This document shows, in pieces, positions 7,601 to 62,241 of a DNA stretch of 64,000 bases. Position numbers and translations under genes: made by a program. Source of the stretch: Paraescarpia echinospica (Eukaryota > Annelida > Polychaeta > Sabellida > Siboglinidae); contig CM034542.1 of NCBI GenBank assembly GCA_020002185.1, positions 59,814,097-59,878,096 of the forward strand. The letters run 5' to 3'. The notes beneath the pieces are model-generated. The model made no database searches and was not told where the DNA came from. It saw only the letters and a list, made by a program, of their open reading frames with translations. Numbering within the stretch: position 1 is the stretch's first letter; the number at the start of each line of letters is the position of its first letter.

Positions 7601-10600
7601 AAAGAAACTGCAGAGGAAATAGCTGCCATTATCACACACATCTTCCAACAGTCATACAACACATGCAAACTCCCCGATGACTGGCTCCAAGCACTAGTAA
7701 CTCCAATACACAAAAAAACACAAATCTTACCTCGCAAACTACAGATCAATATCGCTAACATACGAAAACATCCAATCTCTCGTATGCCTCTTTGCAGATG
7801 ACATCATTGTATATATGTAAAATCACCTCCAAAACCGACCATGACATTCTTCAAACTGACCTGATCCAACTCCAACATGGTCTGACAAATGGCATATGGA
7901 ATTTAACATTTCTATATGTGTCCACCTCCCAATAACAAACAAAACCCAGACTTCACTCTTCGGCATGCCACTCGCTACAGTATCCAGCCATCCATATCTC
8001 GGAGTAAAATTAGATTAAAAATTAACCTGCATGACATCACAAGGAGTAGAATTGATGCCACATTTCCCCAACGTTTGCAGTCATGAATGACATCACAAGG
8101 AGTAGAATTGATGCCACATTTCCCCAACGTTTGCAGTCATGAATGACATCACAAGGAGTAGAATTGATGCCACGTTTCCCCAATGTTTGCAATGATGAAT
8201 GACATCACAAGGAGTAGAATTGATGCCATGTTTCCCCAACATTTGCAGTGATGAATGACATCACAAGGAGTAGAATTGATGCCACGTTTCCCCAACGTTT
8301 GCAGTGATGAATGACATCACAAGGATTAGAATTGATGCCATGTTTCCCCAACGTTTGCAGTGATGAATGACATCACAAGGAATAGAATTGATGCCACGTT
8401 TCCCCAACGTTTGCAGTGATAAATGACATCACAAGGATTAGAATTGATGCCATGTTCCCCAACGTTTGCAATGATGAATGACATCATAAGGAATAGAATT
8501 GATGCCACGTTTTCCCAACGTTTGCAGTGATGAATAACATCATAAGGAATAGAATTGATGCCACGTTTCCCCAACGTTTGCAGTGATGAATGACATCACA
8601 AGGATTAGAATTGATGCCACGTTTCCCCAACGTTTGCAATGATGTATGACATCACAAGGATTAGAATTTATGCCATGTTTCCCTAATGTTTGCAGTGATG
8701 AATGACATCACAAGGAATAGAATTGATGCCATGTTCCCCAATGTTTGCAGTGCTCCATGACATCACAAGGAATGTAATTGACGCCATGTTTCCCAATGTT
8801 TGCAGTGATGAATGACATCACAAGTAATAGAGTTGACACCATGTTCCCCAATGTTTGCAGTGATGCATGACATCACAAGTAATATAATTGACGCCATGTT
8901 CCCAATGTTTGCAGTGATGCATGACATCACAAGTAATAGAGTTGACGCCATGTTCCCCAATGTTTGCAGTGATGCATGACATCACAAGTAATAGAGTTGA
9001 CGCCATGTTCCCCAATGTTTGCAGTGATGCATGACATCACATCACAAGTAATAGAGTTGACGCCATGTTCCCCAATGTTTGCAGTGATGCATGACATCAC
9101 AAGTAATAGAGTTGACGCCATGTTCCCCAATGTTTGCAGTGATGCATGACATCACAAGTAATAGAGTTGACGCCATGTTCCCCAATGTTTGCAGTGATCA
9201 CATCACAAGTAATAGAGTTGACGCCATGTTCCCCAATGTTTGCAGTGATGCATGACATCACAAGTAATAGAGTTGACGCCATGTTCCCCAATGTTTGCAG
9301 TGATGCATGACATCACATCACAAGTAATAGAGTTGACGCCATGTTCCCCAGTGTTTGCAGTGATGCATGACATCACATCACAAGTAATAGAGTTGACGCC
9401 ATGTTCCCCAATGTTTGCAGTGATGCATGACATCACAAGTAATAGAGTTGACGCCATGTTCCCCAATGTTTGCAGTGATTCATGACATCACAAGTAATAG
9501 AGTTGACGCCATGTTCCCCAATGTTTGCAGTGATGCATGACATCACAAGTACCATGTTCAACACGAGGTTCATGGAGGAACTGTTCAAGCCCCAAGAAAT
9601 CTACTCTAAGAAGGCAATGCGCACGGTGTTTGACCGACTGGCGCATGCATCCATCATGCGACTAAACGCAGCCAGCATGGACAAAGTAGGTGTGGCAGAT
9701 GTGTCAGTATTCACTCCATGCCACCACAGAAAAATGCGTAGCATGGTCTGTGCAACTCGCCGTATTTGTCAAGCAATTGATGAAAATGTACCAGTAACTA
9801 GAATTGGTTAACAAATTCAGCTGCTTTTCAGTAATTTTTTATTTACGTCGTAACATTTTATCTTTTAAAACCTTAAATTTGTTCTTAATTTTTTTACTTG
9901 AATAGTATGTTTAAATTACATATTTAAGTAGAACCGAGTACTTTATCAATGAAAATAACTCCTATTTTTGGCATTGGCATGTCTATTGTCTTGAAATTGG
10001 TATTTTGGAATTGGTATTTTTAGTTGGGATTTGGTGTGGTGTAATTGTATGTAATTGGAAATGATATAATGTAGTTTGCCCCAAGTTTAGGTCTGGAGTG
10101 TGTAATACCTGTATGTGTAATTTGCAATTTCTAGAATTTTCATACCAGATAAAAAATCACTGGCTTTTTATTAAACCTACTGGCGTCATCATTGGCTGAA
10201 TATATATTATATAGAAACTTGCACAAGTAGCAGGTAAAATGGGTAGAAATCAAACATTTGTTCATGCTTGTATCTGTGTATGTATAGGATAAACAACATG
10301 CAGTGAAAAAACGACGCGTTCATGTGGGGAACCAGGTAGAGCTCTACAGTTTGTCAGTTGTTGCTTTACAGATAACACGATTCCGCCAGTTTCATTACAA
10401 TTTATAAATGGAAGAACAATTTAGTGTAATGTGTAAAATTTGTTTTATTTTATTCTTAGGACTTTCTGTTGTGTTCAACGTGTTTTGTTGGCGTACAGTA
10501 AAACCTCATTAACTGGAAATGCAAAGATCTAAACCCATTCGTTGTCTTATCTCGGTTTCATCATACGTAGTAATCTGATGCGACGGAAACCTCGCTAACT

Positions 10601-13600
10601 CGAATAGTAGGCTTGATTTTCGAGTTAACGTGGTTTTACTGAAGTGTGTCTGATGGGATTAAGACGTCCAATCGGTTGAACTAACACTGAGATAACATAT
10701 TGGTTTCTAAGAAACTAAAACTACAAAACTTTGCATTTATGCGTAAATTGTATCCGTGACTCTCAGTACTATGAATCAATGGTAAGTGCTCAAAGTTGCA
10801 CTCATCATTTTGACCTGTTTTCAAGTATCCCTAACATAACAAATTTTTACAAAATGAAATTTGCTGAATATCAATTCCGTTAGAAATGTATCGGATGCAC
10901 AAAGTGTGTCAATATCCAACTTTTGTAGAACGGACTGTAGTTAGCGCGCTTGTGCAGTTCTGTGTTTCCTCGGCTAGCGGCATGTTTGTCAGACAACGAT
11001 TGTGGCAATAAACAACTCACTATGATACCAGGGGGTAAAGAGTGAAACATGGTGGCAGCGACTAAAGCGCCCAAACCTCCGGCGATACATTAATGTGATT
11101 AATGCAGTACTTTGCTGATGGTCATTGACGAAACGGTGATATCGTAGTGCACTGAATCCTCGCACGAGCGTGTCGTAGGAGCTACAGTCGATTCACCATA
11201 AGTCTGTCACGATGGCCGCTGAGTAAGCGCGTGCAGCGCCTCTCGCAAATGTCAATCCGCCGCCGCTACTAATCTTGAAAGATCAACCAATTGAAGAATG
11301 GGCGATGTTCAAGAGGCTGTACAAGAACTACGCTATCATCACGAAGTTGCAACAACAAGATAAAGCGTATCAGCTAGCCGTACTTCTCAATGCAATGGGA
11401 CCCGTGGGTGTACAGCTATACGATGATTTGACATTCGCGGAAGGAGAGGAAAATGAAGATACTACCGTCATCATGGCAAAACTTGATGCTACAATTCAAG
11501 GTGAACTGAACGAGACGTACGAGCGCTACGTGTTCAACAAGCGGAATCAAGGTGTGAACGAAACCTTTGGTGCGTATTTATCGGCACTCAGATTATTAGC
11601 AAAATCATGCAATTTCTGTGACTGAACGACTCGCTGATAAGAGACCGCATCCTCATGGGCATTCGAGATCCCGCTAGTCGTAAACACCTGCTGCAGAAAA
11701 GGAAGTTGACGCTGAAGATGACCATAGATATCTGCCGTTCTGATGAGGCAGCAAACAAACAGATGAAATCTATGTGTGACACAGATCAGATACACAAAGT
11801 CAATTGTTGCGGTGATCACACAAGAAAACCTAGATACCGTGACGCACACAAACAGAAACAACACATTAAACGCAGCGACAGCGACAAGAGGCTGAACTGT
11901 AAATTCTGTGGACGCACACACCAGCAGAGGAAAGAAAATTGCCCTGCGTGGGGGAAAACATGCCACAAATGTAGAAAACAAAATCATTTCTCGAACTGTT
12001 GCCAGGTAGGAAACAAGAAGGTGCACAATATCGCTGCGTCAAAGAGAGCGGACGAGACCACCATGGGTCTGCGTAAGGCTTCGGACAATAGAGGTCCGAT
12101 TTACGCACAACTAAAATTGAACGGCAAGCTGGCGAAGCTTCAAGTTGACAGTGGGGCGACCGTGAACGTCCTGCCCGAGAAGTACGTCAATAAAGAGGAT
12201 ATTGTGACTTCCAATGTAACGCTACACATGTGGAACAAGACGACTCGAGCTGTTGTTGGCAAGACACAATCAGTCGTAGAGAACCCCGCAACAAACAAAA
12301 AGTATGCAGTGTGGTTTGAAGTCGTCCAAGGAGACTTCACACCTCTCATCGGCAGGCAGGCCACAGAAGAAATGGGCCTCATAACCGTAAACTACGGAAG
12401 TTTCAAGCTGATGCACGAGGTAACGTCGACAAACGTATTGGAAAAGTTCAACGACGTTTTCGAGGGAGGGTTGGGAAGCCTACCGGGAAAGGTCCATCTC
12501 CACATGGAACAGGACGCGGTATCCGTGCAGTGCCCGCCGAGAAGAGTCCCCATCACACTGAAGAGCAAGTTGAAGACGGAACTGGACCGTCTCGTGAAGA
12601 TGAGAGTCATCTGTCCAGTCACCGAGCCCACCAAGTGGTGTAGCCAAATATCTATACAGACAAAGAAGGACACGTCGTTGCGTGTCTGTATAGACCCGAG
12701 ACCACTAAACAAGGTCTTACACCATGAACTTTTACCCGCTACCGACAATGGACGAGGTGCTACCAGAGATGTCCACGGCACGAGTATTCTCGAAGCTAGA
12801 TCTGCAATCAGGGTACTGGCACTGTGACCTCGACGAAGAGAGTAGCCTGCTGACTACCATCATTACACCGTTTGGTCGGTACCGATGGAAGCGTTTACCA
12901 TTCGGGACGAACGTCGGCGCTGAGATATTCCAGCAGAAGTTGAACCAGGCCCTTGAGGGTCTTGAAGGTGTCATCTGCGTGGCGGATGACATAGTCGTCT
13001 TCGGCAGAGACGACCACGACAAGAAGCTGCGTTTGCTGCTCATGCGATGTCGTGAAGCTGGCATCAGACTCAACCGGAAGAAGTGAGAGTTCCGGACGAA
13101 CGAGATAAACTTCATGGGACATCTGGTCACCAGTGAAGGACTGAGAGCAGACGAGAAGAAAGTTGAGGCCATCATAAAAATGGAGAACCCAAACGACGTG
13201 AACGGCGTCCAGAGGCTGCAGGGCACGGTTGGGTATTAGTCGAAGTTCTTGCCGGGCCTCTCCGATGTCATGGAACCCATCAGAAGGTTAGCGCATCCTG
13301 ACGTTCCGTGGAAGTGGTCAGAACAACAAGAAAGAGCGATGGAGAAGTTAAAGCAGCTGACGACACAGTCCGATCCTCGCCTACTATGAGCCTCAAGCCG
13401 AACTTGTCATCGAGTGCGACGCTAGCGAAACTGGACTTGGTGCAGCTCTCCTACAAAAGGGGAGACCTATCGCCTACGCTAGTCGATCACTCACTGATAC
13501 GGAGACTATATATGCGCAACTTGAGAAAGAATGTCTTGCCATCGTTTTCTCGTTGGAACGTTTCCACCAATACACATTTGGGCGAAGGACAATTGTACAC

Positions 13601-16600
13601 AGCGACCACAAACCTCTCGAAATGATCGTAAAGAAGCCACTGTATAAAGCTCCGAGGAGATTGCAAGGAATGCTCCTGCGGATGTTGCAGTACGACACGA
13701 AGGTCGTCTACCACAAAGGGAAAGAGATGTATATCGCAGATATTCTCTCTCAGTCATACCTGCAACACCAAGGCGGTACCGACAATTTCGGAGCTGTGAA
13801 TGCTGTGAAGCAGCTGCCAATCAGCACAGAACGCCTGGCAATGCTGAAGGCACACACGGAGAGCGACGAGACTCTACAGACACTGAAGCATGTCATACAG
13901 CGAGGGTGGCCCGAGACGCGTGATGAAACCCCAACTAGCATCCATGCGTATTTCAGCATGAGAGACGAACTAGCAGGGCACGCCGGTTTAGTCTTCAGAG
14001 GAGAAAGAGTAGTCATCCCAGATGGAATGAGGAAACTCACGAAGGAGTGTCTCCACAGCTCACACCTTGGTGTGGAAAGTGTCCTGTGACGAGCAAGAGA
14101 ATGTATCTATTGGCCTAACATGGCATCAGACATCAAACAAGTGGTTGAGAACTGTGAGGCGTGCAGAACCTATGAACGAGCACAACAAAAAGAAACGTTA
14201 ATGCAACAAGAGACACCGACGAGACAATGGGAGAAAGTCGGAGTGGACCTGTTCAGCTGGGAAGGTCGTGACTATCACGTATTGGTCGATTACACAAGCA
14301 ACTTCTGGGAAGTCGACAGGATGACTTCAACGACCACAGCAAGCGTGATAAAAACTATGAAAGCACACTTCGCTAGAAATGGCATCCCATCAGTCATAAT
14401 TAGCGACAACGGGCCGCAGTACGTCTCGGACGAATCCCAGAGATTTGCTGTGAAGTGGGACATCGAGCATCAGACCAGCGCACCAGGCCACCAGAGCGCC
14501 AACGGAAGAGTGGAAGCAGCCGTGAAAGCCGCAAAGCTGATGTTCACCAAATGCAAGAAGTCACAGACAGACCCATATCTAGCATTTCTAGAAATCCGAA
14601 ACACACCGACACAAGGGGTTGGAAGCAGTCCAGCACAGAGACTGTTAAACAGACGAACGCGAACATTACTCCCGATGACAACAACACTTCTGGCGCCATG
14701 GGGCGAAGAATACTTGAGAAAAGACAGGGTCAGAATAAGCAAACAGAAGGAGAAACAAGGAAAAAACTATAACAGAACAGCGAAAGATCTTCCGATCCTC
14801 GAGGAGGGCGATATCATTCGCATGAAGCCGTTCCGTCCTGGTCAAAAGGCATGTACTGTTGGTTCATACAGGCGGAATCGAGTGCACCTTAGACGAACAC
14901 ATGAGGACGAGACAAACCCGCAGACGCAGGAGCCAGCAACGGAGATGACACCTGAGCCATCCGAACCGGCAGATCAATCACCGGAGATGAGTGACGCCAC
15001 GGTGACGACTCCACGAAGATCTGTGCGACTCAAGAAACGATCTACTCGTCTGGCGGACTATATTACCAACCTGTGACTTTGCCTTATGTTTATTTCTATT
15101 TTATAATTGAACGTTTAACTAGTGTTAATAAGTTGTAGTTGTAGACCATTGAGCCACTTTAGCGCTATATAGATAGTGTTTTATTAGTAAGTTCTTATTT
15201 TTCTTTGTTTAGAAAAGAAGGGATGTGTCAATATCCAACTTTTGTAGAACGGACTGTAGTTAGCGCGATTGCGCAGTTCTGTGTTTCCTCGGCTAGCGGC
15301 ATGTTTGTCAGACAACGATTGTGGCAATAAACAACTCACTATGATACCAGGGGGTAAAGAGTGAAACACAAAGATTTGTAACACTTGATAAAACTGTATA
15401 TTTATTTTGCTCCTATGTTGACAGCTGTATGACCTGATGACAATGGCATTCAAGTACCAGGTCTCACTAGTTCTACGACCACGTGACATTCTGCTTGTGA
15501 CACTCAATCACATGGACGCCATCAAGCAGTTTGTTGCCGATTCGCCAAGCATCACGACACAAGTTGACAATGTCTACCGTCTGTTTATACATGTATGTAC
15601 ATGTTATATGACTGTCTCATGTTGGCATTTTCCAGCAATCTAGTAGCGTCTAATGAGCAGCTGAACTCTCTCGGCTTCAGAACTAGCTGTTCTTTGTATT
15701 CTTTCTAGCTTAGCTATGTCCTTCTTACAACATAGACCATAACTGACACACATTTATGCAGTGTTCTAAATAACTTCTGACTAATGCTTTTCTACACGGC
15801 TGTATTGTATGTAACCCTTAAGAGAGCAGCGATTCACATTGCTCTGTCGTATTCACACTACTGATTAGTAACAATTGTTACTCCTATGTCCTTTTTCTTT
15901 ACGGTCGTCCCTAGTATGGTATCTCGGTCGTTTTCATGTGCTGTATTTACATTTCTCAACATTGAATAACAGCAGGTCTGCCATTTTTCAGACCATGTAA
16001 CAAATTTGTCTAAATAATTATGTGGGTTTTGTGTAACTCTAAACCTTTTGCAAACACTTATCTGTTTTAATAACATTGTACACCAAGCAGGCTACCTGCC
16101 TTTCTGTGCTTGTGTATTTTAATAACACTGTACACCAAGCAGGCTACCAACCTTTCTGTGCTTGTGTATTTTAATAACATTGTACACCAAGCAGGCAACC
16201 AACCTTTCTGTGCTTGTGTATTTTGAAATAACATTGTACACCAAGCAGGCTACCAGCCTTTCTGTGGTTGTGTATTTTAATAACATTGTACACCAAGCAG
16301 GCTACCAACCTTTCTGTGCTTGTGTATTTTAATAACATTGTACACCAAGCAGGTTACCAGCCTTTCTGTGCTTGTGTATTTTAATAACATTGTACACCAA
16401 GCAGGTTACCAGCCTTTCTGTGCTTGTGTATTTTAATAACATTGTACACCAAGCAGGCAACCAACCTTGCTGTGCTTGTGTGTTTTAATAACATTGTACA
16501 CCAAGCAGGCTACCAGCCTTTCTGTGCTTGTGTATTTTAATAACATTGTACACCAAGCAGGCTACCAACCTTTCTGTGCTTGTGTATTTTAATAACATTG

Positions 16601-19600
16601 TACACCAAGCAGGCAACCAACCTTTCTGTGCTTGTGTATTTTAATAACATTGTACACCAAGCAGGCAACCAACCTTTCTGTGCTTGTGTATTTTGAAATA
16701 ACATTGTACACCAAGCAGGCTACCAGCCTTTCTGTGCTTGTGTATTTTAATAAAATTGTACACCAAGCAGGCAACCAACCTATCTGTGCTTGTGTATTTT
16801 GAAATAGCATTGTACACCAAGCAGGCTACCAGCCTTTCTGTGGTTGTGTATTTTAATAACATTGTACACCAAGCAGGCTACCAACCTTTCTGTGCTTGTG
16901 TATTTTAATAACATTGTACACCAAGCAGGTTACCAGCCTTTCTGTGCTTGTGTATTTTAATAACATTGTACACCAAGCAGGCAACCAACCTTGCTGTGCT
17001 TGTGTGTTTTAATAACATTGTACACCAAGCAGGCTACCAGCCTTTCTGTGCTTGTGTATTTTAATAACATTGTACACCAAGCAGGCTACCTGCCATTCTG
17101 TGCCTGTGTATTTTAATAACATTGTACACCAAGCAGGCTACCAGACTTTCTGTGCTTGTGTGTTTTAATAACATTGTACACCAAGCAGGCTACCTGCCTT
17201 TCTGTGCTTGTGTATTTTAATAACATTGTACACCAAGCAGGCTACCTCCCTTTCTGTGCTTGTGTATTTTAATAACATTGTACACCAAGCAGGCTACCAG
17301 CCTTTCTGTGCTTGTGTATTTTAATAACATTGTACACCAAGCAGGCTACCTGCCTTTCTGTGCTGTTTAAATGAAATGTTTTCTGTGTTTCCAGCACTTT
17401 GCTTCACTAACGATGGGAGAGTTCATGCTGATACGACAGACCCTTCTAAACTTCTTCCAAGACATGCACATCAGGGTGAGTTGTAAGGACAGACCCTTCT
17501 AAACTTCTTCCAAGACATGCACACCAGGGTGAGTTGTAAGGACAGACCCTTCTAAACTTCTTCCAAGACATGCACACCAGGGTGAGTTCTTCCTTCCTTC
17601 CTTCCTTCCTTCCGTCCGTCCTTCCTTCCTTCCTTCCTTCCTTCCTTTTTGCATCATTGATTAAGCCTGCCAATTTTGAAACTCTTTGTTTGTTTGTATT
17701 TACGTTTTCCTGCGACAGGTGTCAATATTCCTGAAGGACAAGGTGCAATCTTCCAATGGCCACTTTGTGCTGCCGACTGACGGTCCAATACCCTGGGGCA
17801 CAGAACTCCCGGGAACTATTCGGTAAGAATATGTTATTCAGCACAGAATCCACAGATATATCTGCTATGTCTGAACTGCATCATACAGTGTTTGCTAAGA
17901 GTTGTTTCTCACTTGTTCTCACTTGTACATTTTGGATTTTGGTAATAATTGTCTAGTAATTTGCTAGAAAGCATTGTTTGTAAAATAATTGCCATGCCAT
18001 TTCAGTTATATTTAATGAAACAATATTGTCCTTGGCATTTTTTCACATGCAGGAAAATATGACTAGTTTGATACCTAGTTATAGTTTTTTTTAGCCACTA
18101 GGATGTAGTCTAGTACGTTTGCTAGTGCAGCAATTACATGCTTGTTTTGAATTAAAGATTTTTAATAAATGTTTTAAACATAAACTAACATTGTTTTTTC
18201 AGACTGCCTAAAACATTATATGATATTCTTGACCAACAAATTGAATGTTTTTCATTATTTTGTGCTATTTTTATGCTTTTAAAGACAACTACAAAATATG
18301 CACAAAAATCTCCTCAAAATGGCATTTTATTTCATTTTTAGCAAAACCTGGATAGAAAAATTAGTATGTTTTTAAGTACAAATATGTTATTGACATTCTT
18401 ACCAGAACAACCATTTCTGTCTGAGATTATACATGTTTGCTTTCATGCACACTGCGCAGACAGACTGCACAGACACACACATCACACCCGCACATCACAC
18501 ACACAAACACACACACAATGTCTTGTTAAAAACTAAACATATTGAAGCAGTCGGGAATTATACAAGATGACATTGAGTGCAGACACTAGTAGATGTTATA
18601 ACATATTGAAGCAGTCAGGAATTATACAAGATGACATTGAGTGCAGACACTAGTAGATGTTATAACATATTGAAGCAGTCAGGAATTATACAAGATGACA
18701 TTGAGTGTAGACACTAGTAGATGTTATAACATATTGAAGCAGTCAGGAATTATACAAGATGACATTGAGTGCAGACACTAGTAGATGTTATAACATATTG
18801 AAGCAGTCAGGAATTATACAAGATGACATTGAGTGCAGACACTAGTAGATGTTATAACATATTGAAGCAGTCAGGAATGATACAAGATTACATTGAGTGC
18901 AGGCACTAGTAGATGTTATAACATACTGAAGCAGTCAGGAATTATACAAGATGACATTGAGTGCAGACACTAGTAGATGTTATAACATATTGAAGCAGTC
19001 AGGAATTATACAAGATGACATTGAGTGCAGACACTAGTAGATGTTATAACATATTGAAGCAGTCAGGAATTATACAAGATGACATTGAGTGCAGACACTA
19101 GTAGATGTTATAACATATTGAAGCAGTCAGGAATGATACAAGATTACATTGAGTGCAGACACTAGTAGATGTTATAACATATTGAAGCAGTCAGGAATTA
19201 TACAAGATGACATTGAGTGTAGACACTAGTAGATGTTATAACATATTGAAGCAGTCAGGAATGATACAAGATTACATTGAGTGCAGACACTAGTAGATGT
19301 TATAACATATTGAAGCAGTCAGGAATTATACAAGATGACATTGAGTGCAGACACTAGTAGATGTTATAACATATTGAAGCAGTCAGGAATTATACAAGAT
19401 GACATTGAGTGCAGACACTAGTAGATGTTATAACATATTGAAGCAGTCAGGAATTATACAAGATGACATTGAGTGCAGACACTAGTAGATGTTATAACAT
19501 ATTGAAGCAGTCAGGAATGATACACGATGACATTGAGTGCAGACACTAGTAGATGTTATAACATATTGAAGCAGTCAGGAATTATACAAGATGACATTGA

Positions 19601-22600
19601 ATGCAGACACTAATAGATGTTATAACATATTGAAGTAGTCAGGAATGATACAATATTACATTGAGTGCAGGCACTAGTAGATGTTATAACATACTGAAGC
19701 AGTCAGGAATTATACAAGATGACATTGAGTGCAGACACTAGTAGATGGTATAACATATTGAAGCAGTCAGGAATTATACAAGATGACATTGAGTGCAGAC
19801 ACTAGTAGATGTTATAACATATTGAAGCAGTCAGGAATTATACAAGATGACATTGAGTGCAGACACTAGTAGATGTTATAACATATTGAAGCAGTCAGGA
19901 ATGATACAAGATTACATTGAGTGCAGACACTAGTAGATGTTATAACATATTGAAGCAGTCAGGAATTATACAAGATGACATTGAGTGTAGACACTAGTAG
20001 ATGTTATAACATATTGAAGCAGTCAGGAATGATACAAGATTACATTGAGTGCAGACACTAGTAGATGTTATAACATATTGAAGCAGTCAGGAATTATACA
20101 AGATGACATTGAGTGCAGACACTAGTAGATGTTATAACATATTGAAGCAGTCAGGAATTATACAAGATGACATTGAGTGCAGACACTAGTAGATGTTATA
20201 ACATATTGAAGCAGTCAGGAATTATACAATATGACATTGAGTGTAGACACTAGTAGATGTTATAACATATTGAAGCAGTCAGGAATTATACAAGATGACA
20301 TTGAGTGCAGACACTAGTAGATGTTATAACATATTGAAGCAGTCAGGAATTATACAAGATGACATTGAGTGCAGACACTAGTAGATGTTATAACATATTG
20401 AAGCAGTCAGGAATTATACAAGATGACATTAGGTGCAGACACTAGTAGATGTTATAACATATTGAAGCAGTCAGGAATTATACAAGATGACATTGAGTGC
20501 AGACACTAGTAGATGTTATAACATATTGAAGCAGTCAGGAATGATACAAGATTACATTGAGTGCAGACACTAGTAGATGTTATAACATATTGAAGCAGTC
20601 AGGAATTATACAAGATGACATTGAGTGCAGACACTAGTAGATGTTATAACATATTGAAGCAGTCAGTAATTATACAAGATGACATTGAGTGCAGACACTA
20701 GTAGATGTTATAACATATTGAAGCAGTCAGGAATTATACAAGATGACATTGAGTGCAGACAGTAGTAGATGTTATAACATATTGAAGCAGTCATGAATTA
20801 TACAAGATGACATTGAGTGCAGACACTAGTAGATGTTATAACATGCTGTGTCACTAAGTGCATTGCGTTCCAGTGAAAGCGTGCCTGCTTGTGAGAGACC
20901 TGCCCACACTCAGAGTTCAACTTAGTCACTGTAGGTCTTGTGAATTTTGTCAGCTGGGTGTCTGTTGCAGGATCTACACATTGAACGGGGAACAGAAGAA
21001 GACGATGCAGTTCAATTGTGGGGGAAAGTGGCAGCACATCAAGTCAGAGGGGTCATTTGACATCAGGGGTGACAGAGGCACTCACTTAGGAACTAACATG
21101 TAAGTACGTCATACAAGTCAGAGGGGTGTTTGACATCAGGTGTGACAGAGGCACTCACTTAGGAACTAATATGTAAGTACGTCATACAAATCAGAGGGGT
21201 GTTTGACATCAGGGGCGACAGAGGTACACACTTAGGAACTAACATGTAAGTACATCATACAAGTCAGAGGGGTGTTTGACATCAGGGGCGACAAAGGCAC
21301 ACACTTAGGAACTAACTTGTAAGTACGTCATACAAGTCAGAGGGGTGTATGACATGAGGGGCGACAGAGGCACACTCTTAGGAACTAACATGTAAGTACG
21401 TCATACAAGTCAGAGGGGTGTATGACATCAGGAGCGGCAGAGGCACACACTTAGGAACTAACATGTAAGTACATCATACAAGTCAGAGGGGTGTATGACA
21501 TCAGGGGCAACAAAGGCACACACTTAGGAACTAACTTGTAAGTACGTCATACAAGTCAGAGGGGTGTATGACATGAGGGGCGACAGAGGCACACTCTTAG
21601 GAACTAACATGTAAGTACGTCATACAAGTCAGAGGGGTGTATGACATCAGGGGCGACAGAGGCACACTCTTAGGAACTAACATGTAATTACGTCATACAA
21701 GTCAGAGGGGTGTATGACATCAGGGGCGACAGAGGCACACACTTAGGAACTAACATGTAAGTACACCATACAAGTCAGAGGGGTGTATGACATCAGGGGC
21801 GACAGAGGCACACTCTTAGGAACTAACATGTAAGTACGTCATACAAGTCAGAGGGGTGTATGACATCAGGAGCGACAGAGGCACACACTTAGGAACTAAC
21901 ATGTAAGTACACCATACAAGTCAGAGGGGTGTATGACATCAGGGGCGACAGAGGCACACTCTTAGGAACTAACATGTAAGTACGTCATACAAGTCAGAGG
22001 GGTGTATGACATCAGGGGCGACAGAGGCACACACTTAGGAACTAACATGTAAGTACACCATACAAGTCAGAGGGGTGTATGACATCAGGGGCGACAGAGG
22101 CACACTCTTAGGAACTAACATGTAAGTACGTCATACAAGTCAGAGGGGTGTATGACATCAGGAGCGGCAGAGGCACACACTTAGGAACTAACTTGTAAGT
22201 ACGTCATACAAGTATGAAATCTGGGTTTCTATCAAATGGATTTTGGTGGTTAGACATACATATCTATGAACATGAAAGTTGATTATGAAATATAGCTAGT
22301 AAATAAAACTACAAAATACTTTATAATTAAGATGAGTTGCCATCTTTAGTCAACTGTTGGCATTTTGGAAATGGCTGGAGGAGGAATGAGTATATCCTAT
22401 GTAAGGTCATGGTGCAGCAACTGATGTGATTGGTTGATGTGGTTGCAAGTACAACTGATGTGATTGGTTGATGTGGTTGTAGGTGCAGCAACTGATGTGA
22501 TTGGTTGATTTGTTTGCAAGTACAACAATTGATGTCATGGGTTGATTTTTGTTGCAAGTACAACTGATGTGATTGGTTGATTTTGTTGCAAGTACAACTG

Positions 22601-23172
22601 ATGTGATTGGTTGATTTCGTTGCCACTGCAGCAACTTATGTCATTGTTTGATTTTGTTGCAGGTGCAACAACTGACTTGATTGGTTGATTTGGTTGCAGG
22701 TACAACAACTGATGTGATTGGTTGGTTTTGTTGCAGGTACAACGACTGATGTGATTGGTTGATTTGGTTGTAAGTACAACTGATATGATTAGTTGGTTTT
22801 GTTGCAGGTGCAACAACTGATGTAATTGGTTGGTTTGGATGCAGATACAACAATTGATGTGATTGGTTGGTTTGGTTGTAGGTACAACGTATCACGCCCG
22901 GCCCTGGAAGCCAAGGTCAGCGGCCCTCATGTCATTTCTTCGTCCACGGCAGAGGGGGTGAGAAGTTACCTTTGACTTTCTACTACATTGATTTGATGAT
23001 TACTAGACCAAGGTAGCTTTGCTGGTGTACACATAAAGCTATGGCTATGAACAAATGAATAGTGTAAAAGCTCCCATGATAGCTGCATATAATTGCCTTA
23101 ATGGGAGCCTCCCTGACCTTACAATGAATATGATATTGTAGTTTATGTGCTTATGATGGTAAAAATAAATAC

Positions 23173-23236
<64 letters not shown>

Positions 23237-23380
23237 CGTCCGTCCGTCCGTCCGTCCGTCCGTCCGTCCGTCCGTCCGTCTGTCTGTGTCTGTGTCTGTC
23301 TGTCTGTCTGTGTGTATGTCTGTGTGTCTGTCTGTGTGTCTGTCTGTGTGTCTGTCTGTGTGTCTGTCTGTCTGTCTGTG

Positions 23381-23427
<47 letters not shown>

Positions 23428-23460
23428 GTGTCTGTCTGTCTGTGTGTCTGTCTGTCTGTG

Positions 23461-23531
<71 letters not shown>

Positions 23532-26500
23532 GTGTTTGTCTGTGTCTGTCGCTGTTTTAAATTAAAAATAAACTTTTAATATCTTCACAATGTTCATGCT
23601 ACCAAAATGTGGATAAACAGCACTGATGAAAACCAGAAATGAAACATTTTTGTTTTTGTCAATATTTGTTTAGCTGTATTCCTATTATAATGTAATTGTA
23701 CAGACATTAATTTTAATATTGTTTGAAGTGTTTGTGCATACAGTTTGTGACAGATTGGCGAGGTCTGCGTAACTAGATGGTTCAAGTCTAGTGGGGTTCA
23801 GTATTAACTATTTCAATGCTTGTGAATGAGGCAGCAACCGTGAACTACGCAACAAGGAACAAAGGAAATATAATTAATTTGATTACATATATAATCACCA
23901 AAGAACTCTTATAATAAAAAGAAAATCAAAACATCTATCCTCTAGGCTACCCTACCTCGGCTCTCAGATAATCTTTGATACTCAAAAGAAAATAATTGAA
24001 CGGCCCGTTCAAAAAACTAAGTATTATTCACATACAAGGGAAATTCACGAAGTCACATCAGGACGCAATGACCGTTCGTCGGAAGTATCCGTCCTGTTGC
24101 CTGTCCGCCGTCCCGTTGACCCGCCGGCTCGCTGACCCGGCTCAGCCGACTGTTTGCCAGAAATGTTCTTCCTGCTGTCCGCCAGGGTGGCACTTGCCAT
24201 TACAGCCCTGTTATATTCTCTCTATTCTACACGGGCTGTGATCTCTACAAGATCTCTCTAGGCATCAGGGTGGCACTTGCCATTACAGCCCTGTTATATT
24301 CTCTCTATTCTACACGGGCTGTGATCTCTACAAGATCTCTCTAGGCATCAGGGTGGCACTTGCCATTACAGCCCTGTTATATTCTCTCTATTCTACACGG
24401 GCTGTGATCTCTACAAGATCTCTCTAGGCATCAGGGTGGCACTTGCCATTACAGCCCTGTTATATTCTCTCTATTATACACGGGCTATGATCTCTACAAG
24501 ATCTCTCTAGGCATCAGGGTGGCACTTGCCATTACAGCCCTGTTATATTCTCTCTATTCTACACGGGCTGTGATCTCTACAATATCTCTCTAGGCATCAG
24601 GGTGGCACTTGCCATTACAGCCCTGTTATATTCTCTCTATTCTACACGGGCTGTGATCTCTACAAGATCTCTCTAGGCATCAGGGTGGCACTTGCCATTA
24701 CAGCCCTGTTATATTCTCTCTATTCTACACGGGCTGCGATCTCTACAAGATCTCTCTAGGCATCAGGGTGGCACTTGCCATTACAGCCCTGTTATATTCT
24801 CTCTATTCTACACGGGCTGTGATCTCTACAAGATCTCTCTAGGCATCAGGGTGGCACTTGCCATTACAGCCCTGTTATATTCTCTCTATTCTACACGGGC
24901 TGCGATCTCTACAAGATCTCTCTAGGTATCAGGGTGGCACTTGCCATTACAGCCCTGTTATATTCTCTCTATTCTACACGGGTTGTGATCTCTACAAGAT
25001 CTCTCTAGGTATCAGGGTGGCACTTGCCATTACAGCCGTTATAATCTCTCTATTCTACACGGGCTGCGATCTCTACAAGATCTCTCTAGGTATCAGGGTG
25101 GCACTTGCCATTACAGCCCTGTTATATTCTCTCTATTCTACACGGGCTGTGATCTCTACAAGATCTCTCTAGGCATCAGGGCGGCACTTGCCATTACAGC
25201 CGTTATAATCTCTCTATTCTACACAGGCTGCGATCTCTACAAGATCTCTCTAGGCATCAGGGTGGCACTCGCCATTACAGCCCTGTTATATTCTCTCTAT
25301 TCTACATGGGCTGCGATCTCTGTTTGCTGCCTGTCAATTTGTATATACAAAGTCCTAATAGCATAACACATGACTGGATTGAACCAATTAAATAAATAAG
25401 AATGCGATAATGAGCCCTACCTAATTTATGCATCATGAAAACACCCCTATAATAATGTAATCTTCCACGACGACGTGAGTTAATTAAACGCTAATTATAA
25501 CCATGCTTCACTGGGCGGACCTGCGCTAGGCTACAAATAATTACGTAACACAATCTACTGTGTCTACGACTTTAACAAAATGACCAAGAAATAAAATTCT
25601 GAAAATATATAAATAGAAGAAACGCTACACAGTCGTAATACATACATGTGTACATGTGTACATGTGTACATGTGTACATGTGTACATGTGTACATGTGTA
25701 CCAGTCCTGTCATTCCAACTTGTATTGCTCAAGCAAATGAATGATGACTGATGTTGTTATTATTAAAATACTTTTTCTTAAACTTACTCATACACAAAAT
25801 GTGATCACAAGTTGGATCACTGTATTGCCTCGTCAAATGCTTTATACACATGCAAATAGCTCTGGGCATTACATCTGTGCAGTTCTGATTTCATAGTCAC
25901 AAATGTTGAATCATGAGTTATTTTGTTACGTCACGAAACCGTCATCATGCTCAGAATTTGTTGTTTTAAAACGGACTGCGTCAATAAAGAACTTGGTTCC
26001 TAATATTGACTTTGAATTGGCTAAACTTAAACTTTAGAAATGTGAAATAAATACAAATGGTTCTGTTGTGACTTACTGTCATATGTAAGCGTACTGTCAT
26101 TGTTTGCAAAGATGCCATTTGATATAAGTAGTTCATGAAATCTGGTTATGACAAAATGTAATGTTTGTATTTTGTTGTAGGATTGAGCCCTAGCCCCCAA
26201 CCCTCTGGTTACTGACATGTTTGTATTTTGTTGTAGGATTGAGCCCTAGCCCCCAACCCTCTGGTTACTGACATGTTTGTATTTTGTTGTAGGATTCAGC
26301 CCTAGCCCCCAACCCTCTGGTTACTGACATGTTTGTATTGTGTTGTAGGATTCAGCCCTAGCCCCCAACCCTCTGGTTACTGACATGTTTGTATTTTGTT
26401 GTAGGATTCAGCCCTAGCCCCCAACCCTCTGGTTACTGACATGTTTGTATTTTGTTGTAGGATTCAGCCCTAGCCCCCAACTCTCTGGTTACTGACATGT

Positions 26501-29500
26501 TTGTATTGTGTTGTAGGATTCAGCCCTAGCCCCCAACCCTCTGGTTACTGACATGTTTGTATTTTGTTGTAGGATTCAGCCCTAGCCCCCAACCCTCTGG
26601 TTACTGACATGTTTGTATTTTGTTGTAGGATTCATCCCTAGCCCCCAACCCTCTGGTTACTGACATGTTTGTATTTTGTTGTAGGATTCAGCCCTAGCCC
26701 CCAACCCTCTGGTTACTGACATGTTTGTATTTTGTTGTAGGATTCAGCCCTAGCCCCCAACCCTCTGGTTACTGACATGTTTGTATTTTGTTGTAGGATT
26801 CAGCCCTAGCCCCCAACCCTCTGGTTACTGACATGTTTGTATTTTGTTGTAGGATTCAGCCCTAGCCCCCAACCCTCTGGTTACTGACATGTTTGTATTT
26901 TGTTGTAGGATTCAGCCCTAGCCCCCAACCCTCTGGTTACTGACATGTTTGTATTTTGTTGTAGGATTCAGCCCTAGCCCCCAACCCTCTGGTTACTGAC
27001 ATGTTTGTATTTTGTTGTAGGATTCAGCCCTAGCCCCCAACCCTCTGGTTACTGACATGTTTGTATTTTGTTGTAGGATTCAGCCCTAGCCCCCAACTTC
27101 TGGTTACTGACATGTTTGTATTGTGTTGTAGGATTCAGCCCTAGCCCCCAACCCTCTGGTTACTGACATGTTTGTATTTTGTTGTAGGATTCAGCCCTAG
27201 CCCCCAACCCTCTGGTTACTGACATGTTTGTATTTTGTTGTAGGATTCAGCCCTAGCCCCCAACCCTCTGGTTACTGACATGTTTGTATTTTGTTGTAGG
27301 ATTCAGCCCTAGCCCCCAACTTTCTGGTTACTGACATGTTTGTATTTTGTTGTAGGATTCAGCCCTAGCCCCCAACCCTCTGGTTACTGACATGTTTGTA
27401 TTTTGTTGTAGGATTCAGCCCTAGCCCCCAACCCTCTGGTTACTGACATGTTTGTATTTTGTTGTAGGATTCAGCCCTAGCCCCCAACCCTCTGGTTACT
27501 GACATGTTTGTATTTTGTTGTAGGATTCAGCCCTAGCCCCCAACCCTCTGGTTACTGACATGTTTGTATTTTGTTGTAGGATTCAGCCCTAGCCCCCAAC
27601 CCTCTGGTTACTGACATGTTTGTATTTTGTTGTAGGATTCAGCCCTAGCCCCCAACCCTCTGGTTACTGACATGTTTGTATTTTGTTGTAGGATTCAGCC
27701 CTAGCCCCCAACCCTCTGGTTACTGACATGTTTGTATTTTGTTGTAGGATTCAGCCCTAGCCCCCAACCCTCTGGTTACTGACATGTTTGTATTTTGTTG
27801 TAGGATTCAGCCCTAGCCCCCAACCCTCTGGTTACTGACATGTTTGTATTTTGTTGTTTGTTGTTTGTTGTAGGATTCAGCCCTAGCCCCCAACCCTCTG
27901 GTTACTGACATGTTTGTATTTTGTTGTAGGATTCAGCCCTAGCCCCCAACCCTCTGGTTACTGACATGTTTGTATTTTGTTGTAGGATTCAGCCCTAGCC
28001 CCCAACCCTCTGGTTACTGACATGTTTGTATTTTGTTGTAGGATTCAGCCCTAGCCCCCAACCCTCTGGTTACTGACATGTTTGTATTTTGTTGTAGGAT
28101 TCAGCCCTAGCCCCCAACCCTCTGGTTACTGACATGTTTGTATTTTGTTGTAGGATTTAGCCCTAGCCCCCAACCCTCTGGCTACTGCGCAACTGGATCT
28201 GCTCTCAAAACTGATTGGCAGAAATGAAACAAAAGGTGGAACGCCGGAGTTCCGACTGAATCTTTTTAACACAGACGAGGAGGAAGAGTGCGTACTTATT
28301 CCTTCTCCGGGCCGTAATAGTGTTGGTACATGCTAATGGACTGTAATTCATTTTCTATTAAGGCATCACTTTGATTATTTAGAAACGTCTGCCACAGTTA
28401 TGTTAACAATTGAAGTTTAACAAGATTGCTGCCATCCAGAAAATTAACTCTAGATGACAGATGGACAAGGAAGCCTTTTGGCTTATCGAGAGTCCAATAC
28501 TTTTTATCTACGTGTATCCCGCCCTTTTATGGTATGTGTCAATTTTATTTTTAAACATTCACGCTACTAGCACCAACTCAATCAGGAGATAATCTGTTCC
28601 ATTCATTTACAGTCCTTTGTGAGAATGAGAACTTTCTTTTATCTAATCTACACTGCTCCTTTACTAATGTAACTTCATGTCCTCTGGTCCTTCTATCTTT
28701 CTTAACTGAGAAAAAAATATTTCTATCAATATTTTCATAACCATTCAATATTTTAAACACTTCAATCTGATCTCTCAATCTCCTGATCTCTAGTGTTGTT
28801 AAACCACGTATTTCATAACTAAGATCCCTAAGTTTTGGTATAATTTTAGTTGCTCTTCTCTGTACTCTTTCTAGCATATCTATGTCCTTCCTGCGATATG
28901 GCCTCCACGCTTAAATACAATATTCTAAATGAGGCCTAACTATTGTTTTGAACAGTGGTATTATCAGCTCTTTTTCCTTATAAGTTATGTTTCGCCTAAT
29001 TAATCCAAGGATTTGATTTCCCTTTGAAGCAGCAATACTGCACTGCTCTGAAACCTTCATATCAGCACTGATGGTTAACCCTAAGTCCTTTTCTTTTACA
29101 ATAGTACTTATTACAGAACCTCCCATTGTGTATTGTACATCTTCGTTCCCATGTCCTGTGTGGAGGCATTTACATTTCCCAAAATTGAACAACATTTGCC
29201 ATTTTTCAGACCATTTTATCAACCTGTCAAGATCATCTTGTAAATGCTGTCTATCTTCATCACGTTTAATCCTTCTAAACAATTTTGTATCATCCGCAAA
29301 TTTCAACACCTTGCTTGTTATATCATCATCCATATTAAGAATAATATAAGTCCCAGTACTGATCCCTGTGGTACTCCACTCAAAACTGATTTCCAGTTTG
29401 AAGCCTCCCCATCAACTACTACCCGTTGTCTTCTGTGAATTAGCCATTTTTCTATCCAGTTAATTAAACCATTTCCTATGCCATGGGCCTTTAGTGTTGA

Positions 29501-32500
29501 TGTTAATGAAATGTTGAATAATGTTGCAACACCTCACTGGGGGAGGGGGGTTGGGGCACACAAAAAACTATAGTGTCTCTGGTGTGTAATATAACACTAA
29601 CATCACCAGAAATGATGTGGAGTAATCAACAGAAGATATACAAGTAATACAACGTGTGCTTTTGTACGTTTATGCAAAATCGAGACAATTGTGTGTGCAC
29701 GGCGAACATCCCATCGACATTCAACTTAATGCACTATCTGTTCATTATTAGTGTGCAACTTTGTCTAGACTACAGTAATAACACAGGCGTTGGTGAACTA
29801 GAAGACACCAGTGGAGACCTGAATGAGTGTTTTTTGTTCCCAGAGAAGCAGCTATGATGCAGCCAATGGAAGCCGCTCAAGCCAAAGTGATCAAGATAGA
29901 TGCCTCAAAAGTAGGTTGCATGATCACACTTTTTTCTTTGCTTCAAGATTTTACTACAACTTTCCCCACAATACAGTCTATTCATGTCCGTACTGCCTGC
30001 CAGACTGTTGCATAATAGTTCAGATTGACACTGTTTTAAAATAAATTTAAATCCTTGGAAATTATATGAAAATACACTTAGTGTCTTTAGGGCCATTTCA
30101 TAAATGTGGGAGTTGCCACAGTAAGCCCAGTCAGTGTCCAGTTTATTGTTCACTACAAACAGACCCAGTCAGTGTCTAGTTTATTGTCCATGACAAACAG
30201 ACCCAGTCAGTGTCCAGTTTATTGTCCACTACAAACAGACCCAGTTAGTGTCCAATTTATTGTCCACTAGAAACAGACCTAGTTAGTGTCCAGTTTATTG
30301 TCCACGACAAACAGACCTAGTCAGTGTCCAGTTTATTGTCCATGACAAACAGACCCAGTCAGTGTCTAGTTTATTGTCCACGACAAACAGCCTCACCCAG
30401 GATAAAATTTTTGCCAGTCCAAATTTTTTCCGACATGCTACAAAGCGCAGTCGGGCAAGTTGTTTCATTATAACACATTTAATTGCCACAATTTTCAAAA
30501 TTATTAACAATACCATAAGAAATTAGCAAACATATTTAACGTGGAATGCCAATTTTTATATACAATTAAAATGTGTGTATACAAATTGTATACAAGGTCT
30601 GATGGACTACGGAAGCTTGAAATTTGAAAGCATTCGATTTTTTGTTGTACAAGTATCATATAATAATATTAGAAATACTACAGTTCGATTTTGTTTAATT
30701 TCTAAAACAAAATATTAGATTGACAAATATTGTTTTTAATAAGTCGCCATGCAATGGCCGTAATCAGTTACAGTTATTAATTAAAACATTGTGTATTCAT
30801 GTTGCTGTGAATGTTTCAATTGTTAGACTATAAATCAGTCAAGACATTAATTAATTTAATTAGCAAGCGACGCGTAGCTTCATGCCTTGGACCACCCAAC
30901 ACGCGACCAAACAACGCGCGATGAACGGGACTCACCACGGCAATGCCCTAAAAATAGCGCAGACATAACTAAATCTAGCACAGTCGCCATATGTTCAGCC
31001 TGAATGCTCCACTGCAGGCTGATTATCGCAATCCTGTTAAAAAATGATGCGACATCGTCAAACAAAATCTAGTTTCCGCACTTGTAAATTTAATTATCAC
31101 ACAACATACATAATTTGAATAGTGGAAAACTGACAAATGGCATCGGTGATGCACGAAGTTGTATATCGGGCGATAACATAGGTAAACCGACATGTTTACA
31201 CTTCAACTGATCGTAACAGTTTTGTTTCTCTGACGGCATCAATTTCGTGTAACATCAACAGTCAGGGCTGCCTACCTAACAAAAACAATTTCCATAATGA
31301 TCCCCGTCGCACCCCGCCCCGCTCCCTGGTCCACAGGGTTGTCAATCAAACCTTTCTCTGAAGTAGATACAGTGACAAGTCCAGCCTGTTGACAGTGCCT
31401 GGGAATCCAGGAAGTTGCTCATTTAATCATCAAAAGTAGATATACTTTGTTTCAACATAATTATTGTGTGCTACACTGTAACTCCTGTCGGCAGTTAACA
31501 TCTTCTTTAGCACTTCAAAGGGATGCTTGTTTAGCAACATCCAATAAGTTACATTGTGTTAATTACAGCTGTCAAAGTGCCTGCATGGCCAGACATGTCC
31601 AAGTGTTTACGTCTGTAGAGCATCACCGTGAGAAAGACAGCGCCAGTGAATAGCCAATAATCATCCAACGAGCTTCTAAATTTACAACACACAGCAGGAA
31701 CATTATAATTATTACTAACAATCAATGACAAAAGTTAAATTGTTCTATTAAAATAAAACCTTTCAATACAAAATTGATAGTTTTATATTGCAATTACAAT
31801 AATTATAATACTCATTTTATATTATTCTAAGACATTTTATAATTATATCCATAACTTTCAGAAAACCATAACTATTTAATGGTTCTACCGAACGTCATCT
31901 TCATTTATTTTTTTCACTATATAATTCTACACCTGTACATTTTATTAATGTCTAGACGTGCATTAATGACACTGATAATAATAATATGCTCACGTGTCAC
32001 ATGCCACGCAGTCAACAGCAGGCTGGTGGCAGTCAAAGTTGTAACATTGTACACAGGCACAGCAACGGATGACGTCACCATACTGACTTAGTAGAACTTG
32101 TAGTGGATTAAATATGTGTTGATAAATTGTAACAAGTGAATGAGACAGTTTCTTCAGGGCATCTCGAGCAGCAGTAATTATAGATTTAGCAATTCTTTAA
32201 TGTATATCATTTTCTGTAGTCGGATATTTGTATTCCCGTAATACGGCGGCAGTTTCCGTAATGCTGTAATCTGAGGTGAATTTCCGTAATGAATACAAAG
32301 AATCCGTAATGGTAGGCAGCCCTGTAATGGTAGGCAGCCTTGCAACAGTGAACACCAACACATCTCCCCGTTGGTTGATTAAAATCCAAATATGATTACA
32401 AGTGTGGGTTTTCGATTTGCCGCGACCTGTGTTTTTGCGAAAACCGTACCTTCGCGACGCGCTGTTGGCATGAAATTCTTAGCGCGCATTTTCGCTAAAT

Positions 32501-35500
32501 CATGGACGACAAGTTGGTAAAATAAAGGAATTATTCTAAAACCTTTATACCATTGTAAAGAATGTTATGTTGTCGTTCCAATGATATTAAATATGTACCA
32601 TTTAATGCGGACTGAACGATGTAAGGACTGCGTGACCGGTGGTTTGTCATAGTTTTGCACCAGATCTGGCCAGATCCAACAGCCACAGCGGCCGCTGTGG
32701 TAATGCTAGTTAGTTACTGTGATAGTCACTGTTGTCTGTTAGTGGTCGCCGGTGCCTTTGATGCGGTTACAATTACGTCTAGGAAATCGTTTGGGAACGG
32801 AAAGAGCGGGTTCTTCCCAGGCACTAATAATAACAGCAATACACTCAATTGGTGCCTGCGTAACATCACCCAATCAGTTCACTAAACTGTCCAATCAACG
32901 AGAGCTTATTGGAACTCCCTGCCCTGATTATTTGGTCTACGCAAGTGTTGCCTGCTTTTCAAACAACCACCGCTAGCGGTTAGGTGACAATTACCCTAGC
33001 AAGTCGAGGCCTTAATTGGTTTCTGGCGTGTGTCGGGCAGATGGCCAGGCAATACGAGTGGTCGATTTTTAAAACCAATCTCAGTACATTTTGTAACTGG
33101 CTTCGCGGCAGTTTCAATGACGCCGTAAAAATGGCATGAGCGGGCTGTCCAGCGCAAAAATACGGCATGAACGGATATGGAAGCACCAGCCTGGCGGACC
33201 CGTCCACAATCAATTTCACCCCGTCCAAAATCGCGATTTTCGAATTTTACCCGTCCAAATGACGGGTGGACGGGTCTCTGGGTGAGGCCCTGACGACAAA
33301 CAGACACAGTCAGTGTCCAGTTTATTGTCCACTACAAACAGACACAGTCAGTGTCCAGTTTATTGTCCACGATAAACAGACCCAGTCAGTGTCCAGTTTA
33401 TTGTCCACGACACAAACCGACACAGTCGGTGTCCAGTTTATTGTCCACGACAAACAGACACAGTCATTGTCCAGTTTATTGTCCACGACAAACAGACACA
33501 GTCAGTGTCCAGTTTATTGTCCACGACAAACAGCCCTAGTCAGTGTCCAGTTTATTGTCCACTACAAACAGTCACAGTCAGTGTCCAGTTTATTGTCCAC
33601 TACAAACAGACACAGTCAGTGTCCAGTTTATTGTCCACTACAAACAGACCTAGTCAGTATCCAGTTTATTGTCCACTACAAACAGTCACAGTGAGTGTCC
33701 AGTTTATTGTCCACGGCAAACAGACTCAGTCAGTGTCCAGTTTATTGTTCACTACAAACAGACCTAGTCAGTGTCCAGTTTATTGTTCACTACAAACAGA
33801 CCTAGTCAGTGTCCAGTTTATTGTCCACTACAAACAGTCACAGTCATATATTATAACAAAAACTAGACAATATGATTCCTTGTTTCTCAAAACATTGCTT
33901 TTTAATGTTTGCTTAAATGTTTGCAATAAATCAAACTACTGAAGGTATTTTAACAAATGAGGCATTGTCTTAGAGCTTGTTATTTTTGGAAACCAAAAAG
34001 TTACAAAATTTAATTTGTCATAATTTTGAGACTTAATACCCACTTTCCTCTGGCAGGTGACATATGTTACAAATTGTTTTTTTTAATAAATTTGTTGTTA
34101 TATTAAAGAATGTGTAATACTCATTGTTGTTGTTAAACTACATAATATTCATGTTTGCTTTTTAGTAATATATATTCTGTAAAACGATACTCTGTATACC
34201 TTCTGATACTTGCATATTTTGTGAAAAAATCACAAAGTACTAAAGAAACAAAGTCTAATAGTTTTTACTGTAAAATCTTGTTATGTAGTTTCAACTATGT
34301 CTACTCTTTCATTGCCCTAGTGTGGTTTAGTAAAGCATAATTTGTTAATGTCATTTGACTGTTATCCTCGATATGTGTTTACTGGTTAAACAGTAGACTA
34401 ACTTCACCATCATGATGTTTTGATGGTTTTGTTAGATACTAAAATGCGTCTGTTATAAACAATAGCAAGGTGTGCGTGCGTGCGTGGGTGGATGTTGGTG
34501 TGTGTGTGTGTGTGCGGGCGGTCGGGTGGGCGGGCGGGCGGGCGGGCAGGCGGGCGTGCGTGAGTGCGTGTTATTTATAAACATTCACACAGCCAGCATT
34601 AACACAATCAGTAGATATTTTTGTTTATTGCGTGTTCTTGGGAATACTGAACAGTTCTATTACCTTTTAGTTAATGTTGGGTCTGACATTAATTTAAGTT
34701 ACAGTTTGTCTGATGACACAAGAACTGTATAGAGATGTTGTATAAAGGAATTGGTCTGTCGGTGTCGATACTGTGTAGGTTTTATTTTTGGGCAAAATGA
34801 ATTTGAAATTAGACAAGTGAAAAAATTGACTTGAGACACATTTAACACTGTGTGTTCTGTTTGCCCCACAGAAAGGTGGAGAGTACGGAACTGAGTTAGG
34901 GTTAACCCTACCTTGAGGAAACACATTTAACACTGTGTTCTGTTTGCCTCACAGAAAGGGGGAAGTACAGAGCAGAGTTAGGGTTAACCCTACCTTGAGG
35001 AGTCACCTTTAACCCTGTGTTCTGTTTACCCTACTGCCAGGGGAGAGCACGGAACTGAGTTACGGTTAACCCTACCTTATGAAGTCACCTTTAACCCTGT
35101 GTTCTGTTTGCCCTACTGCCACGGGAGAGCACGGAACTGAGTTAGGGTTAACCCTACCTTGTGAAGTCACCTTTAACCCTGTGTTCTGTTTGCCCTACAG
35201 CCAGGGGAGAGCACGGAGCTGAGTTAGGGTTAACCCTACCTTGTGGAATCACCTTTAACCCTGTGTTCTGTTTGCCCTATTGTCAGGGGAGAGCACGGAA
35301 CTGAGTTAGGGTTAACCCTACCTTGTGAAGTTACCTTTAACCCTGTGTTCTGTTTGCCCTACAGCCAGGGGAGAGCACGGAGCTGAGTTAGGGTTAACCC
35401 TACCTTGTGGAGTCACCTTTAACCCTGTGTTCTGTTTGCCCTACAGCCATAGGAGAGCACGGAACTGAGTTAGGGTTAACCCTACCTTGTGGAGTCACCT

Positions 35501-37523: not shown

Positions 37524-37645
37524 AAGTTCCTGGTCCTTGAGTAAGGGGATTAGCAAGTTCCTGGTCCTTGAGTAAGGGGATTAGCAAGTTCCTGGTCCTT
37601 GAGTAAGGGGATTAGCAAGTTCCTGGTCCTTGAGTAAGGGGATTA
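37524..37645. repeat. Tandem array J: 34 bp unit, four copies
   Basis: The unit is AGTTCCTGGTCCTTGAG followed by TAAGGGGATTAGCA. The last copy ends in TTAACTTG. It lies between the OSCP1 3' UTR and the MECR 3' end and overlaps the end of a small minus-strand reading frame. Confidence 0.95.
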
Positions 37646-37878: not shown

Positions 37879-37879
37879 T

Positions 37880-40380: not shown

Positions 40381-62241
<21,861 letters not shown>

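Follow-up and report, generated by a model that had tools for sequence, protein, structure and literature searches.

Minisatellites that cross exon-intron boundaries, repeating the splice site together with a piece of the neighbouring exon, are real in the tubeworm Paraescarpia echinospica and occur in several parts of its genome. Five genes, distributed over four chromosomes, carry them, and in two of these genes, OSCP1 and ACAT2, the junction lies inside a tandem unit at 9 of 32 splice sites (18 in OSCP1 and 14 in ACAT2). We consider it probable that these minisatellites began as tandem duplications straddling an exon-intron junction, which were tolerated since the exon-side copy splices correctly.

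Arrays crossing exon edges in OSCP1 and ACAT2

The window, that is, the whole stretch of 64,000 nucleotides that was analysed, contains OSCP1 and the first part of ACAT2. The ten exons of OSCP1 and exons 1-7 of ACAT2 were rebuilt as continuous frames, and the splice sites of OSCP1 are consistent. The exons within the window are as follows.

1527..35707, forward strand: OSCP1 gene, ten exons; open frame over all joins, agreement with relatives' proteins, Pfam Oscp1 on two exons
1527-1638, 9531-9685, 15425-15592, 17395-17475, 17719-17822, forward strand: OSCP1 exons 1-5
20971-21099, 22882-22957, 28154-28287, 29844-29910, 35603-35707, forward strand: OSCP1 exons 6-10
40381-40426, 52600-52734, 53739-53920, 62124-62241, forward strand: ACAT2 exons 1-4 (gene entry 40381..62241); open frame, 90% identity to Ridgeia piscesae

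Exons 5-7 of ACAT2 and its last exon lie outside the window, within the 15 kb that follow it. The coding sequence linking exon 7 to the last exon was not found there, and an assembly gap, a run of 1000 N, begins at that point (relative position 75857). The OSCP1 joins match the protein of one relative (96% identity, from a 1705-base contig) and the OSCP1 of Lamellibrachia satsuma, and the ACAT2 joins match the ACAT2 protein of Ridgeia piscesae. Among the matches listed, the OSCP1 protein derived from the window reaches 89% with L. satsuma and 70% with the next named match, Lineus longissimus; the corresponding values for ACAT2 are 90% with R. piscesae and 69% with Patella caerulea, the next match named by organism. 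The deposited L. satsuma OSCP1 protein carries a 15-residue insertion at the join of exons 2 and 3, perhaps reflecting a mis-annotated splice site. Human OSCP1 has a stretch that predicts an extra short exon; this exon was sought in the tubeworm gene and not found, and the stretch behind it is also absent in four aligned invertebrate relatives.

The initial annotation had placed seven junctions inside arrays that repeat the splice site and a piece of exon. Using TRF at the positions given there, we found arrays carrying 7-60 bp of exon at these junctions. The seven junctions thus stand, although they were counted against thirteen exons and the window holds 14. The crossing arrays, those in the window established by TRF and unit alignment, and one non-crossing array are given below.

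8028..9549, forward strand: array of 55-56-bp units over the OSCP1 exon 2 acceptor; exonic part of the unit, 19 bp
17435..17588, forward strand: array of 53-bp units over the OSCP1 exon 4 donor; exonic part, 41 bp
21040..22213, forward strand: array of 73-bp units over the OSCP1 exon 6 donor; exonic part, 60 bp
22411..22888, forward strand: array of ~37-bp units over the OSCP1 exon 7 acceptor; exonic part, 7 bp; the weakest case
26161..28187, forward strand: array of 56-bp units over the OSCP1 exon 8 acceptor; exonic part, 34 bp
34851..35625, forward strand: array of 82-bp units over the OSCP1 exon 10 acceptor; exonic part, 23 bp
61773..62141, forward strand: array of 27-bp units over the ACAT2 exon 4 acceptor; exonic part, 18 bp
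Relative 66257-67644 and 68966-69229, outside the window: arrays over the ACAT2 exon 5 and exon 6 donors
16065..17364, forward strand: non-crossing array of 52-bp units, stopping 30 nt before the OSCP1 exon 4 acceptor

Boundary arrays are thus found at both 5' and 3' boundaries, namely at five acceptors (OSCP1 exons 2, 7, 8 and 10; ACAT2 exon 4) and four donors (OSCP1 exons 4 and 6; ACAT2 exons 5 and 6). The two ACAT2 donors, which were absent from the initial annotation, are among seven ACAT2 splice sites beyond the window. The remaining 23 of the 32 sites are uncrossed: two have an array ending 20 or 30 nt before an acceptor (the former, at ACAT2 exon 7, being excluded from the crossing count) and 21 have neither.

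The units are arranged head-to-tail, as in an ordinary minisatellite (about 10-100 bp per unit), and measure 27-82 bp, each combining 7-60 bp of exon with 8-59 bp of intron; the arrays are up to 37 units and 2 kb long. The four donor arrays include only 8-13 nt of intron per unit, little beyond the donor consensus, and the acceptor arrays include 9-59 nt. With the true junction included, the acceptor AG is kept in register in 24/28, 7/13, 36/37 and 7/10 units of the OSCP1 exon 2, 7, 8 and 10 arrays, respectively, and in 10/13 units at ACAT2 exon 4. The donor GT, counted in the same way, is in register in all units at OSCP1 exons 4 (3/3) and 6 (16/16), and it is retained in 28/36 and 6/8 units at ACAT2 exons 5 and 6. 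In each array the functional exon edge belongs to the end unit on the exon side, and the reading frame is intact. The claim that the true edge is the terminal unit was therefore upheld, as frames are uninterrupted and the joins of relatives agree. Judging from these reading frames and relatives' proteins, the exon-side copy is presumably the one used in splicing.

When 20 arrays were compared with one another, the only sequences to match were the two parts of a single 38-bp array that is interrupted. Given that the units are otherwise unrelated, the arrays appear to be of independent origin, in agreement with the earlier view that they did not spread from one source. The interrupted array (30126-33846) is split by ~2.9 kb of unrelated sequence, and its pieces match at 90%, from which it follows that the insertion is younger than the array. 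The number of edits relative to the exon copy increases with distance in the exon 2 and exon 10 arrays of OSCP1 (the exon 2 list includes some misaligned units), and no significant trend was found in the six other arrays with enough units.

Minisatellites make up 33.8% of the window, and arrays were found in 3 of 5 small stretches of chromosome interiors. An intact single-exon zinc-type alcohol dehydrogenase-like gene (38735-39862, reverse strand; PF08240 and PF00107) lies between OSCP1 and ACAT2. We take it to resemble MECR; its uninterrupted frame is odd among intron-rich neighbours, and it is possibly a retrocopy. Open frames in OSCP1 intron 2 (11227-15073) presumably resemble an LTR retrotransposon polyprotein, and intron 1 has reverse-transcriptase-like frames too. 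At ~4690 on the reverse strand of stretch L017, a 27-bp array (11.9 copies) ends ~4 nt from the acceptor of a coding-looking exon of a third gene; this case is left uncounted, and a search of the exon gave no Pfam family and no PDB match. All 10 kb of stretch L018 and the start of L017 consist of a satellite with a 326-bp period.

The CCT sample and the expectation by chance

The CCT chaperonin family of Pfam was picked, blind to repeats, for its several multi-exon genes, and was followed through the assembly (1.084 Gb, 3111 contigs). Out of 52 profile matches, two long single ones on C6 and four of a second copy on C9 were omitted, leaving 46 exon matches in nine loci, which were examined in slices reaching ~400 bp beyond each. 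These offer at most 92 edges, some of which are gene ends, and exact edges were derived only where an array is nearby. Acceptors in three of the nine loci lie inside boundary arrays.

C3: CCT epsilon acceptor array, 30-bp units, 7 bp of exon
C4: CCT eta acceptor array, 65-bp units, 30 bp of exon
C11: CCT gamma acceptor array, 54-bp units, 38 bp of exon

At CCT epsilon, the 30-bp-period row of TRF stops 4 nt short of the exon, and another row, of longer period, extends 7 bp into it; the last copy repeats GTTGCAG/GAGGTGA, and the site is counted as crossing, like OSCP1 exon 7. Four further CCT arrays end 1, 9, 23 and 25 nt from an exon edge, and no crossing array was found in the other six CCT loci (C1, C3, C8, C9 and two on C12). 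The pattern therefore extends beyond the sites first named, both to ACAT2 past the window and to CCT genes on three other chromosomes. Two copies of one CCT locus with near-identical profile scores are found on C9 (12.289-12.295 Mb and 12.372-12.378 Mb), representing either a recent duplication or unmerged haplotypes. On C11 (50466505-50468913) and C3 (55147376-55149694), CCT exon matches ~2 kb apart are reported in a single open frame of ~835 residues, which is puzzling.

The initial annotation had called for a comparison with random placement. If 18 arrays are placed at random in the window, they cross 0.61 times on average, whereas 7 crossings are observed; at least 7 occur in 0 of 20,000 placements, and circular shifts reach 7 crossings in 8 of 9,143 cases, both tests having used ACAT2 edges that were off by up to 4 bp. 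The excess over random placement is clear; even so, the comparison is unfair, since an intron stripped of its arrays can be short. Once arrays are shrunk to one unit, five of the introns concerned measure only ~100-900 bp. We therefore used a seed model, in which each array is reduced to one unit and the seed may fall anywhere in the shortened intron or over either edge. This model expects 2.9 crossings and 9 are observed (19 arrays, 15 complete introns), with a P of about 2e-4 that is too small, because 7 of the 9 crossings had prompted the study. For the ACAT2 continuation alone, 2 of 3 arrays cross against about 1.05 expected, and for the CCT sample alone 3 of 10 cross against 0.95 expected (P=0.06). 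Array ends fall within -60..+30 of an exon edge in 11 of 14 cases in OSCP1 and ACAT2 and in 7 of 10 in the CCT genes, above a flat spread, with the interval having been set after the data were seen and three of the CCT distances being taken from a profile match rather than a derived edge. An edge preference beyond tolerance is suggested by these comparisons. The proposal that something starts duplication at exon-intron borders was overstated in its original form, given that the seed model and the CCT sample leave a smaller excess. We prefer the alternative offered beside it, namely that duplications are tolerated since the terminal copy preserves correct splicing.

Origin of the arrays and competing explanations

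The exon pieces in the OSCP1 and ACAT2 arrays encode residues that are conserved in distant animals, and the CCT exons match solved CCT subunits of other eukaryotes. Since the repeated pieces encode conserved residues, the exon is the older part and the source of the repeats. In the exon 8 array of OSCP1, 30 of 33 listed units encode Asp-Ser, as do both tubeworm relatives, and 2 of the 33 have a stop at the position of the serine codon, whereas the exon copy in the window encodes Asp-Leu. The serine shared by array units and relatives implies that the copying at exon 8 preceded this change in the exon.

We infer that tolerance, rather than function or a targeted process, accounts for the position of the arrays. 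A tandem duplication, some tens of bp long, would copy both the exon edge and its splice site. The exon-proximal copy would still yield the correct mRNA, and the intron-side copies, being spliced out, would be nearly neutral, while duplications entirely within coding exons would be purged by selection. Unequal exchange or slippage could then enlarge the array and, with it, the intron. The shortness of the introns without their arrays, for which the seed model already expects 2.9 crossings, and the abundance of minisatellites in this genome speak for this account. Exon definition that chooses the shortest exon may explain how some 35 upstream acceptors at OSCP1 exon 8 are bypassed. Use of such decoys would be harmful, given that 13 of 13 correctly placed neighbouring decoy splice sites give a stop (16 were tried; 3 were misplaced and left out, one of these without a stop).

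Tolerance alone does not easily account for 9 crossings where 2.9 are expected, nor for array ends lying near edges beyond a flat spread. These observations favour a different view, which we regard as rather unlikely, that splice junctions themselves raise the rate of tandem duplication, whether through AGGT or CAGG words, nascent RNA and R-loops, or paused replication. The clustering of array ends at edges, including the four CCT arrays that stop just short of one, and the very short intron portion of the four donor units point in the same direction. Against it, seven of the nine crossings are the very cases behind the start of the study, the excess in the clean sets (the ACAT2 continuation and the CCT sample) is modest, and most splice sites of the two genes (23/32) are uncrossed. 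An extension of this view is possible and yet on balance doubtful: that vestimentiferan exon-intron borders are preferred duplication starts, and that boundary minisatellites have thereby lengthened introns throughout the genome, in a process separate in origin from the amphioxus mirages described below.

It could also be speculated that tandem duplication of an exon piece containing AGGT gave rise to the introns in the first place, as in the model of Rogers, and that the arrays are its remains. Repeated exon pieces with splice sites are the trace expected from this process, which has been proposed for amphioxus globins in the available text of PMC3087553. Such an origin requires an identical unit at both ends of the intron, however, and we find no intron of OSCP1 or ACAT2 with related arrays at both ends; only the intron between OSCP1 exons 6 and 7 is crossed doubly, with unrelated units, and we judge this explanation very improbable. 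We give equally little credence to selection keeping the arrays, for example as splicing enhancers or for alternative isoforms. The retention of splice dinucleotides in many units would fit with it, but recent expansion alone predicts the same, the array sequences are unrelated and the neighbouring decoys lead to stops.

Least probable of all is an assembly artefact. Tandem arrays are indeed hard to assemble and the ACAT2 region does contain a run of N, but units differ by several substitutions in most arrays, arrays unrelated to one another are found at unlinked genes, and no frame is broken at the junctions; copy numbers in the assembly may nevertheless be wrong. An effect of the chromosome end was rejected: the window ends ~77 kb from the end of the C12 contig, but the CCT cases lie >4 Mb from contig ends. 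A search of the last 7 kb of C12 for three-fold runs of the two motifs TTAGGG and CCCTAA found none.

Known systems and significance

The initial annotation knew of no genome in which introns are lengthened in this way, but named precedents exist. Minisatellites over exon-intron boundaries in amphioxus have been termed mirages and are described from Adh3, the globins BflGb6 and BflGb9, troponin C and PGBD5, where they are reported to leave splicing undisturbed, according to the accessible parts of the sources (PMC3087553; PMC3902484). As in the tubeworm, mirage repeats span a 5' or a 3' boundary, the genuine boundary is the end copy and many units carry splice signals (accessible parts of PMC3087553 and PMC3902484). 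The differences lie in the host, an annelid here instead of a cephalochordate, in the density of 9 out of 32 splice sites in two genes, and in array size, with up to 37 units and 2 kb here and 3-6 units in globin BflGb6 in the portions available. Splicing and somatic instability have been studied in amphioxus, where PCR across the Adh3 repeats in several individuals and tissues is reported.

Intron gain after Rogers is similar in that exon sequence and a splice signal are duplicated and the extra copy becomes intron, as outlined in the available text of PMC3443670; it differs in that existing introns are seemingly lengthened here and no array of the same unit occupies both ends of an intron. 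Among annelids, the first introns of earthworm metallothionein genes are likewise enlarged by tandem repeats of minisatellite size, although no repeats spanning exon edges are described in the accessible text (PMC12783039). No report of boundary-spanning arrays in tubeworms was found in the literature searched, including the available parts of PMC9921365, PMC10192322 and PMC8476170, a search that mostly covered papers outside subscription. The tubeworm arrays are hence a known kind of structure, found in a distant phylum and dense in two genes.

A structure which the literature compared here, in its accessible parts, reports only from cephalochordates is now found in annelids, with two dense genes and cases on four chromosomes. 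The published genomes of Ridgeia, Riftia and Lamellibrachia allow the arrays to be dated. Two questions also become testable. One is whether tandem duplication is promoted by splice junctions; the other is how a single site is chosen by the spliceosome among dozens of near-identical adjacent ones, for which the OSCP1, ACAT2 and CCT cases are natural experiments in splice-site choice.
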